Below, one piece after another: positions 3,061 through 5,241 of a stretch of DNA of 21,729 nt. The stretch is from a virus, in the IMG/VR virus record IMGVR_UViG_3300031601_000044, positions 1 to 21,729 of that record; one strand, 5' to 3'. The notes beneath the pieces were generated by a model, which made no database searches, was not told where the DNA came from, and was given only the letters and a program-made list of their open reading frames with translations. A program made the position numbers and the translations under genes. Position 1 is the first letter of the stretch. Every line of letters begins with the position of its first letter.

Positions 3061-3142
3061 CCCACAATCCATGCATACTAGGGAATATGTTGGAAGCCCA
3101 GGGAATAAAATAAATATTACCATATTTTTTGTAACAAAACCA

Positions 3143-3171
3143 TTCAAATATGGTACACTGTGATGTATAAT
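3143..3171 (+). promoter_or_regulatory. Rightward sigma-70-like promoter
   Basis: TTCAAA (3143-3148), a 17-bp spacer and a perfect TATAAT (3166-3171) precede the first rightward gene. Transcription would begin near 3178, giving a leader of about 40 bases before ATG 3221 with its GGAAGGA ribosome-binding site. It is divergent from the leftward promoters. Confidence 0.65.
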
Positions 3172-3220
3172 AGAAGGGTGTATGTTTTTGGAGAAATTGT
3201 TTAATTGGAAGGATACTAAA

Positions 3221-3523
3221 ATGGTTAAGATCATACGAAAGCGTAATTCTGGCAAGACAACAATGTTGCTGCATTATATGGTATGTAACCCATATAGCGT
3301 GATGATATGCAAGAATGAATTTACGTGCGAACGAAGACGCAGGGATGTGAAGGGACTCGATTTGGATATACGGGATGATAGATTCGTAAGTATGACCAAG
3401 GTATTCGGTTGTGGAAAGTTGACGCTGATTGCAGATGACCTGGATGTGATGATGCAAGGGCGTCCAGATATAGTGGCCGACTTTATTGGCAGGGTGGCAA
3501 TTGCCACAATGGCGGGAATTTGA
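3221..3523 (+). CDS. Minimal P-loop protein (100 aa)
   Basis: The start at 3221 is preferred over the ATG at 3182 because GGAAGGA (3207-3213) precedes it and the promoter at 3143-3171 would place 3182 at the very 5' end of the transcript. Residues 6-14 (RKRNSGKTT) form a Walker-A-like loop whose first glycine is replaced, and residues 67-75 (LTLIADDLD) look like a Walker B strand with D72-D73. At 100 residues it is far shorter than an AAA+ or RecA domain. Similar mini-NTPase-like proteins occur in phages, but I cannot name a family with certainty. It is the first gene of the rightward operon and its stop is 1 base before the next ATG. ATP binding is inferred; whether it hydrolyses ATP is unknown. 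Confidence 0.65.
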   Translation: MVKIIRKRNSGKTTMLLHYMVCNPYSVMICKNEFTCERRRRDVKGLDLDIRDDRFVSMTKVFGCGKLTLIADDLDVMMQGRPDIVADFIGRVAIATMAGI

Positions 3524-3524
3524 T

Positions 3525-3779
3525 ATGAGTATACCAAGATTGAGGAAGGGTGATAGAGTTGAGATAGTCTGGGAGGACATCATCTCAGACTCATCTTGGG
3601 TAGAGGACGATGATGCAGCGAAGAAAGGCACATGCACATGTCACACCATTGGATATTATGTTAATCGTACAAGGATGGTGCTCAGGGTAAGTCATTGCTA
3701 TAATGCAGAGAAGCAGCGTTCGGTAGATGTCATACCACGAGGTTGTATAACGCATGTGCATAAATTGAGAAGGGAATAA
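3525..3779 (+). CDS. Small phage hypothetical protein, beta-rich (84 aa)
   Basis: The start at ATG 3525 follows the preceding stop codon directly (TGATATG) with GCGGGAA upstream; the longer in-frame start at 3486 lies inside the previous gene. The sequence opens MSIPRLRKGDRVEIVWEDII, continues through an acidic stretch (VEDDDAAKKG), and then GYYVNRTRMVLRVSHC and a VDVIPRGCITHVHKL end. The pattern of a KGDxVEIxWxD strand, a GYxxxxxxxxVxxxxS strand and a final IPxxCI strand resembles a small phage protein seen in many genomes and suggests an SH3-like barrel. Function unknown. Confidence 0.65.
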   Translation: MSIPRLRKGDRVEIVWEDIISDSSWVEDDDAAKKGTCTCHTIGYYVNRTRMVLRVSHCYNAEKQRSVDVIPRGCITHVHKLRRE

Positions 3780-3783
3780 GTCT

Positions 3784-3999
3784 ATGAGACGACGTAAATT
3801 TCTGGGCGGTATAATTGGCCTTGCAGTAGGAGTTGTAAGTGCCGGATGCGCAAAACAAGAGAAGTTCAGGCGGTACGAAAAGGGCACGTGGCTGGTAAGG
3901 GGACAGGCAAAGGATCTTGTACGGACCACGCTGAAAGATGTGCAACATTATTTTCCTGATGGTTTACCGTATGGATATGCGGATAATGTTAAATTGTAA
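3784..3999 (+). CDS. Predicted Tat-like lipoprotein (71 aa)
   Basis: The protein starts MRRRKFLGGIIGLAVGVVSA and reaches C22 in an SAGC lipobox-like site. The RRRKFL run followed by a Gly/Val/Ile hydrophobic core is typical of a twin-arginine lipoprotein signal, although -3 is Ser rather than the usual Leu/Val. The mature part is about 50 basic and aromatic residues with no recognised domain. A phage lipoprotein could be a superinfection-exclusion factor or a lysis accessory (Rz1-like), but no holin or endolysin is nearby and the mature part is not proline-rich, so Rz1 is unlikely. The gene starts 4 bases after the previous stop. Localisation is inferred; role unknown. Confidence 0.65.
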   Translation: MRRRKFLGGIIGLAVGVVSAGCAKQEKFRRYEKGTWLVRGQAKDLVRTTLKDVQHYFPDGLPYGYADNVKL

Positions 4000-4521: not shown

Positions 4522-4851
4522 ATGAAATGTATCAACAAATCAGTTGTACTGGAAGTTAAAAAAGTGACATCATTAAATAGAACCGACGGTGGAATTTTTC
4601 TGCCGGATGACAAGAATGCTGAAGACGAGTTAAAGTTCATCGTGTATATGATAGGCGAAGGCGTGAAAACGGTACGAGTAGGTGATGTAGTGTTAAAGCC
4701 CGAAGTGACAGTGTTGCGTCACACGCGTGTACGTCAGGGTGCCCCTGAGTATGACATGCGTCTGCCTAATGGTGGTGACGGCATAGTAGTTTATGAGAAT
4801 GACATCCGGGTGATTATTGAAGAAGCATCCGAAAATGTCGAAGATGCATAA
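4522..4851 (+). CDS. GroES-like co-chaperonin (109 aa)
   Basis: Residues 21-30 (TDGGIFLPDD) match the GroES mobile loop, where GG plus a hydrophobic tripeptide (IVL in E. coli, IFL here) docks onto GroEL. This is followed by a strand resembling GroES GEV-x-A-V-G (VYMIGEGV, 41-48), the VRVGDVVL segment (51-58; GroES VKVGDIVI) and a C-terminal YENDIRVIIE strand (91-100; GroES ESDILAIVE). Length is close to bacterial GroES (about 97). Several phages encode co-chaperonins (T4 gp31 and related) that replace host GroES so GroEL can fold the capsid protein; the same role is inferred here. Start ATG 4522 follows AAGGAATGAAAG. It is the last protein gene before the RNA array. Confidence 0.7.
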   Translation: MKCINKSVVLEVKKVTSLNRTDGGIFLPDDKNAEDELKFIVYMIGEGVKTVRVGDVVLKPEVTVLRHTRVRQGAPEYDMRLPNGGDGIVVYENDIRVIIEEASENVEDA

Positions 4852-4877: not shown

Positions 4878-4949
4878 ACCAGGGTAGCTCAGTGGTAGAG
4901 AGACGCACTTATAAAGCGTATGTCGTGGGTTCGAGTCCCACCCCTGGTC
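4878..4949 (+). tRNA. tRNA-Ile with anticodon UAU
   Basis: A full cloverleaf: acceptor ACCAGGG/CCCTGGT, T8, D-arm with A14, G18G19 and A21, T-arm GTGGG-TTCGAGT-CCCAC. The anticodon stem is ACGCA/AGCGT (one A-A mismatch) around loop CTTATAA, giving anticodon TAT (4910-4912). G10-A25 is also mismatched and the discriminator is C. CCA is not encoded. It would read AUA, which appears often in the neighbouring genes. Confidence 0.85.
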
Positions 4950-4953
4950 TTTT

Positions 4954-5077
4954 GGTATGATCATCTAACTATGATCGGGCGGGGATATAGGATTCGCACT
5001 TTAAGTAGTTCACTGCTCGTTGGAGGATACCGTGGCGAACGAATGCGGGAAATGTCGGTGCAACCCCGACTCATACC
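4954..5077 (+). ncRNA. 124-nt tRNA-like structured RNA
   Basis: GGTATGA (4954-4960) pairs with TCATACC (5071-5077) as a 7-bp acceptor-like stem. Directly before the 3' strand is a 5-bp T-arm, GTCGG-TGCAACC-CCGAC (5054-5070), with the exact tRNA geometry and C56/A58 equivalents. No normal D or anticodon arm fits; the roughly 90 bases between contain CTAT-g-ATC/GATATAG around loop GGGCGGG, TTCGCAC paired with GTGGCGAA (one bulge), and AGTAG/CTGCT with loop TTCA. It lies between two tRNA-type genes with T-rich linkers. It could be a degenerate or insertion-bearing tRNA or a processed regulatory RNA. Confidence 0.4.
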
Positions 5078-5085
5078 TTTTAGTA

Positions 5086-5141
5086 AACCCCACAAGCCTC
5101 TCAAAACCATATGGTAACTTGAAGCTCAAATGTGTGGGGTC
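5086..5141 (+). ncRNA. Compact hairpin RNA in the tRNA array
   Basis: ACCCCACA (5087-5094) pairs perfectly with TGTGGGGT (5133-5140). Inside are AGC/GCT, TCAA/TTGA (5101-5104 with 5119-5122) and CCAT/ATGG helices stacking towards one apical loop. It ends in CTTTT like the neighbouring tRNA genes, so it could be processed with them or act as an imperfect terminator. It has no T-arm or anticodon loop, so I do not call it a tRNA. Confidence 0.35.
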
Positions 5142-5145
5142 TTTT

Positions 5146-5241
5146 GGCGTAGTAGCTCAGTGGATAGAGTATCGGAGAATTCGCAGCGTTTAAAAACCGC
5201 GCAAATTCCGAATGTCGCAGGTCCGAGTCCTGCCTACGCCC
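5146..5241 (+). tRNA. tRNA-like gene with a 30-nt anticodon loop
   Basis: Acceptor GGCGTAG/CTACGCC is perfect; T8, A14, G18G19, A21, D-stem GCTC/GAGT and T-arm GCAGG-TCCGAGT-CCTGC are present (C at position 55). The anticodon stem TCGGA (5172-5176) and TCCGA (5207-5211) is perfect, but 30 bases, not 7, lie between them. That insert can fold further (CGC/GCG pairing) and ends in an apical TTTAAAAA that looks like an anticodon loop for UAA. No T33 fits the usual place, so the anticodon is undetermined. The variable loop ATGTC equals that of the tRNA-Ile. Confidence 0.6.

Follow-up and report, generated by a model that had tools for sequence, protein, structure and literature searches.

The tRNA cluster of bacteriophage T4 contains two stable RNAs that are not tRNAs, RNA C and RNA D, neither of which has, to our knowledge, any similarity to the abiF RNA with which this report is concerned. 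abiF RNA is the antitoxin RNA of AbiF/Abi_2, a toxic HEPN ribonuclease, and is best illustrated by RCd22 of C. difficile, which binds AbiF directly and thereby neutralises it in trans, provided that the stems of its abiF motifs can form (PMC12373285). AbiF has furthermore been linked to the origin of Cas13 as its proposed ancestor (review PMC12737573). That phages can turn such antitoxins to their own advantage is known from pseudo-ToxI of phage PhiTE, a phage RNA antitoxin mimic that neutralises ToxN (PMC3475682). One phage abiF sRNA has been listed, with no function assigned, in cyanophage S-CREM1, in a report whose accessible text does not discuss tRNA linkage, orphan status or wide occurrence (PMC9964418). 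Phage tRNA arrays and anti-defence tRNAs are set against tRNA-targeting or RNase defences (PMC10264068, PMC11555353).

By the window we mean the whole 21,729-nt stretch of viral DNA analysed (IMG/VR record IMGVR_UViG_3300031601_000044). At 4878-5241 on the plus strand lie four compact elements in a row, each closed by a helix and divided from the next by a T-rich linker of 4-9 nt (in order TTTT, TTTTAGTAA and CTTTT). We put at roughly three in four the probability that element 3 neutralises host AbiF as an RNA antitoxin mimic of the phage and is freed from its tRNA array by tRNA processing, a reading drawn from sequence and from analogy with the systems above. The features are as follows.

4522-4851, plus strand: gene for a GroES-like protein of 109 aa (phrog_3188, E 1.6e-4), directly upstream of the array
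4878-4949, plus strand: element 1, an ordinary class I tRNA-Ile with anticodon UAU (RF00005, 61.7 bits; ARAGORN, Ile-TAT)
4954-5077, plus strand: element 2, tRNA-like, 124 nt, with acceptor helix (4954-4960/5071-5077) and T-arm (5054-5070) intact
5087-5140, plus strand: element 3, abiF RNA (RF03085) by Rfam match, exact 19-nt core and fold
5087-5094/5133-5140, plus strand: outer stem of element 3
5094-5104, plus strand: core of element 3, AAGCCUCUCAA
5105-5123, plus strand: apical hairpin insertion of element 3
5124-5131, plus strand: GCUCAAAU of element 3
5141-5145, plus strand: CTTTT linker of 5 nt from element 3 to element 4, read from the sequence; the commonest phage spacing
5146-5241, plus strand: element 4, tRNA-bodied (RF00005, 50.4 bits; fold)
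5146-5152/5234-5240, 5155-5169 and 5217-5233, plus strand: acceptor, D-arm and T-arm of element 4
5172-5211, plus strand: enlarged anticodon arm of element 4, 40 nt

The identity of element 3 as an abiF RNA is near certain from its letters and fold. An Rfam search that included matches below the curated cut-offs aligned RF03085 to 5088-5140 with 35.8 bits (E 1e-4 in a 751 bp stretch, E 7e-7 over the 21.7-kb record), which is 1.2 bits below the gathering cut-off of 37 bits because of an additional apical hairpin; one phage locus (L040) has a hairpin like it at the tip, and a second (L045) has another. All conserved core letters are present and exact at 5094-5131, comprising AAGCCUCUCAA and GCUCAAAU, the AGC/GCU inner stem and the CAAAU bulge, while the outer stem forms 8/8 pairs (the model has 6), the six-base 3' bulge is as in the model and the element folds better than about 99.6% of its own shuffles (z about -3). 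It has the core AAGCCUCUCAA...GCUCAAAU, the stem architecture and the 6-nt 3' bulge in common with RCd22 (PMC12373285) and with AbiFr of PbAbiF; what sets it apart from them is the apical insertion, the lack of an adjacent abiF gene and its place in a phage tRNA array, where the next tRNA starts 5 nt downstream. A plain terminator hairpin was considered and rejected, the terminator scan being empty there and the core being that of abiF RNA, and other Rfam families gave only sub-threshold chance matches to elements 2 and 3. A blastn search with the sequence of element 3 itself returned no relatives. A preliminary description made from the sequence had rightly called element 3 a hairpin RNA and had missed its membership of a known family.

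That description was otherwise a sound guide to the layout. Four consecutive elements do lie here between closing helices free of mismatch (7/7 pairs in elements 1, 2 and 4, 8/8 in element 3) with T-rich linkers; elements 1, 2 and 4 carry a T-arm at the exact tRNA position, with a 5-bp stem and a 7-nt loop immediately 5' of the acceptor 3' strand; the three have ATGTCG in common, at the border of variable loop and T-stem; and the 124-nt and 96-nt members are, as it said, unlike ordinary tRNAs. Of the tRNA searches, both ARAGORN and RF00005 recover element 1, a full cloverleaf with its Ile UAU anticodon, only RF00005 recovers element 4, where 30 nt stand in place of the 7-nt anticodon loop and the rest of the body fits, and neither recovers element 2, which matches no Rfam family. 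The acceptor (7 bp) and T-arm helix (5 bp) of element 2 are both perfect and in exact tRNA arrangement, a composite that shuffled windows would show 0.02 times per strand; the D- and anticodon arms are missing from the cloverleaf, and about 93 nt stand in their place. Folding, another check then suggested, singles out element 3 and not this interior, which does no better than its shuffles (z +0.88).

The preliminary description went on to propose that the cluster as a whole could be a tRNA array remodelled to supply decoys for the enzymes that process or cut tRNAs. Such a role would suit elements 2 and 4, which retain acceptor and T-arm and not the decoding arm; the anticodon region is likewise enlarged in a 111-nt tRNA of L216, another phage with an abiF RNA, and phage tRNAs with altered anticodon loops have been proposed to evade anticodon nucleases (PMC10264068). 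Element 3, however, is not derived from a tRNA, an exact search of viral contigs with the inner pieces of elements 2 and 4 gave no homologues in which conservation could be read, and the interior of element 2 folds at chance level. With elements 2-4 also missing from the closest relative of the window phage, nothing shows elements 2 and 4 to be decoys, and we regard this account of the cluster as unlikely. Its broader notion, an array that makes a non-translational RNA against host nucleases, survives by way of the abiF RNA, the key element being no remodelled tRNA. Elements 2 and 4 themselves may, as a conjecture, be mainly processing modules, or protected or cleavage-escaping tRNA variants.

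abiF RNA proves to be widespread among phages. A first search of IMG/VR with the pattern AAGCCTCTCAA-N(4-34)-GCTCAAAT yielded 57 viral loci, about 37 of them with good abiF RNAs, the remaining 20 being set aside as chance or weak matches with mismatched flanks (those scored at most 22.5 bits). The pattern of a compensated inner-stem variant (AUGCC ... GCACAAA) gave at least 120 matches, and blastn of annotated phages gave 74 records, a few of the weakest possibly by chance, spanning mycobacteriophages of several groups, Kyanoviridae, a T4-like Acinetobacter phage, T7-like Aeromonas phages and phages of Arthrobacter, Salicola and Roseobacter; S-CREM1 alone among these records carries an abiF annotation. 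The isolated phages Bromden, MrMagoo, Mimi, S-CREM1, S-SZBM1, Acj61 and T7-Ah all carry the RNA, so the idea of a mimic is testable at once. Because the IMG/VR searches fixed the letters of the core, its invariance in those sets is in part imposed; the outer stem was left free. This outer stem covaries strongly and its structure is maintained: across 19 phage copies, the whole structure holds 25 double-change cells where shuffles give 6.5 (0/500), and 93.6% of cells are paired, a share that is 51% or less once the partner strand is slid. Lack of covariation among homologues, named beforehand as a sign against functional RNAs, is thus the reverse of what element 3 displays. The inner stem is likewise compensated, from A-U to U-A, in S-CREM1, T7-Ah and a Salicola phage. 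Tandem abiF-like copies occur, two in L037 and three in L042 and L050 beside a 23-tRNA array, much as RCd22 has two abiF motifs.

The phage copies keep close company with tRNAs. Of the 37 copies in the first set, 12 have a tRNA no more than 100 nt away, where random positions in the same loci would give 2.5 (Poisson tail 1e-5), and the 20 set-aside loci, none of which contains a tRNA, serve as a control. A second, independent set gave 73 of 88 non-redundant viral copies within that distance (15.7 expected), every neighbouring tRNA being on the same strand as the abiF RNA. Spacing is equally constrained, with the tRNA beginning 3-9 nt past the outer stem in 76 of 103 non-redundant phage copies and most often at 5 nt, the distance from element 3 to element 4 in the window; the 76 downstream tRNAs group into 30 clusters when the identity threshold is 85% and into 18 when it is 75%. 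Named phages in which a tRNA array encloses the RNA are S-SZBM1, Mimi, Bromden, Lolly9, MrMagoo and S-CREM1, whose copy (PMC9964418) lies 4 nt before a tRNA-Gly in the record that we examined. Only 1 of 124 bacterial copies has a tRNA within 300 nt, and the linkage is specific to phages.

Fixed spacing of 3-9 nt before tRNAs, together with a GC-rich outer stem followed by a T-rich linker, would also befit a hairpin with a structural or processing role in phage tRNA arrays (an insulator, 3'-end protector or RNase site), its likeness to abiF RNA then being superficial. A hairpin of this sort has no need of the unpaired core AAGCCUCUCAA...CAAAU, a letter-for-letter match to bacterial AbiF antitoxins, and T7-like and other phages have copies with no tRNA nearby; we hold this explanation to be highly improbable. 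As a separate observation on these neighbours, tRNA-Arg(UCU) is the downstream tRNA in 58 of the 76 cases (loci L014-L063 and L201-L320) compared with 70 of all 680 tRNAs of those loci, an excess that may reflect related phages and shared ancestry, or function.

The toxin gene is another matter. The Abi_2 family (PF07751) has no match in the window record, a 21.7-kb fragment, so that an antitoxin RNA is found there in the company of no toxin gene, as in a phage RNA antitoxin mimic. Beyond the window, the family has a member in 2 of 38 first-set virus records (L024 and L061, both times beside the RNA) and in 0 of 45 of the second set, or 2 of 83 other virus records overall, many of them fragments, and none of nine isolated-phage genomes that carry the RNA has the gene. 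In bacteria the same core stands directly upstream of Abi_2 genes, and a Pfam check placed an Abi_2-like gene within 1 kb of 56 of 124 copies. Orphan status alone is not proof of anti-defence, because about half of the sampled bacterial copies also have no adjacent Abi_2 gene. The abiF RNA occurs in well over a hundred other phage contigs with no nuclease gene, mostly just 5' of a tRNA, from which we infer that it probably disarms a host defence. On the bacterial side, about half of the loci sampled (L077-L196) have no Abi_2-like gene within 1 kb, and some bacterial abiF RNAs adjoin a gene of the PD-(D/E)XK transposase family, a RhuM-like gene or a cNMP-binding regulator.

Two further accounts turn on the missing partner. 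Prophage-borne AbiF modules exist (PMC12373285), L024 and L061 pair the RNA with the gene and the window is only a 21.7-kb fragment, so the abiF RNA could be what is left, or one half, of an AbiF toxin-antitoxin module that the phage carries for maintenance or to exclude superinfecting phages, with the toxin gene elsewhere in the phage or lost. The count of 0 of 9 isolated-phage genomes and 0 of 45 further records with an Abi_2 gene argues against this, and decaying remnants are incompatible with a covarying stem and fixed tRNA spacing; we think it very unlikely. The other account gives the RNA a different target, a HEPN protein related to AbiF or Cas13 and encoded by phage or host, for which the RNA would be guide or cofactor instead of inhibitor. 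It draws on the link between AbiF and Cas13, on an intermediate Cas13e whose crRNA, according to a review (PMC12737573), inhibits as well as guides, and on the altered inner stems or tip hairpins of some phage copies. Since an Abi_2-family partner gene is missing from these phages and inhibition is the only function shown for the family, we rank it the least probable of the alternatives.

If element 3 is an antitoxin mimic, its working can be sketched. The phage abiF RNA would be produced within the tRNA array transcript, where a cut by RNase P at the tRNA 5 nt downstream would set its 3' end and trimming of the upstream tRNA-like element would free its 5' end; the fixed distance to the downstream tRNA, read in the light of established tRNA processing, suggests that RNase P makes the 3' end. 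Elements 2 and 4 would contribute the acceptor and T-arm that tRNA-processing enzymes read, minus a normal decoding arm. Once released, the RNA would bind the host AbiF/Abi_2 HEPN ribonuclease in trans in place of the host antitoxin RNA, AbiF would be held inactive and abortive infection would fail. A wider proposition, for which we would offer somewhat less than even odds, is that many unrelated phages keep an AbiF-inhibitor RNA matured by tRNA processing about 5 nt before a tRNA, and that with replacement or cleavage-proof tRNAs it makes up a counter-defence cassette of two layers, one blocking the nuclease and the other replacing what it cuts.

Like pseudo-ToxI, the phage abiF RNA reproduces a type III antitoxin RNA of the host, and some phages (L037, L042) have it in tandem; unlike pseudo-ToxI, it concerns the AbiF HEPN toxin family and not ToxN, is set in tRNA arrays and is very widespread. 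It likewise differs from the anti-defence tRNAs (PMC10264068, PMC11555353) in that the proposed anti-defence element is an antitoxin RNA and not a tRNA. Phage RNA antitoxin mimicry is known for ToxIN, and in the literature that we searched it is not described for AbiF or as a widespread device. If the reading is true, AbiF-type defence would be a strong pressure on phages in nature, and phage tRNA arrays would house RNA inhibitors as well, which bears on why phages carry arrays at all. The phage copies would then be a natural collection of AbiF inhibitors, which could inform the control of Cas13-like HEPN nucleases.

The closest relative of the window phage (L001), with a terminase 90% identical, has the GroES-like gene upstream of the same site and, where the window has four elements, a single tRNA-Ile(GAU) at 3133-3204; elements 2-4 are missing there and no abiF RNA is present, so the abiF RNA is accessory, and the comparison of the two sequences indicates that the array comes and goes as a unit. 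A search of sequenced phages gave no DNA relatives of the window. Two of ten proteins tested between 4522 and 19371, the GroES-like protein and the terminase, match a PHROG family; those of the size of a portal, capsid or tail protein have no PHROG match, which points to a phage lineage that is poorly known. Lactococcal phage sk1, a region of which is reported to protect against AbiF, gave no abiF RNA match, and abiF RNA was accordingly dropped as the basis of that protection.

Unusual RNAs accompany several of these loci. In L042 (590-711, minus strand) and L050 (4412-4533, plus strand) the three tandem abiF-like RNAs differ in inner stems and bulges, and the triplet looks like an expanded antitoxin repeat. 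The array of L040, whose abiF RNA has a tip hairpin like that of the window, includes further structured-looking stretches between its tRNAs (2640-2735 and 3360-3440). The 111-nt tRNA of L216 (8727-8837), on the same contig as an abiF RNA, keeps acceptor, D-arm and T-arm intact around a large insertion in the anticodon region and is similar in kind to element 4. On the reverse complement of L306, at 3713-3804, a tRNA-like gene combines an unusually long variable arm with a UAU anticodon arm that looks normal; the contig also has an abiF RNA that adjoins a tRNA. Relatives of the window phage bear other odd tRNA-like elements at the same site (L005, 5108-5187; L003, 3274-3355), one with a 15-nt anticodon loop, the other with an acceptor and T-arm after a 5' half that is strange.
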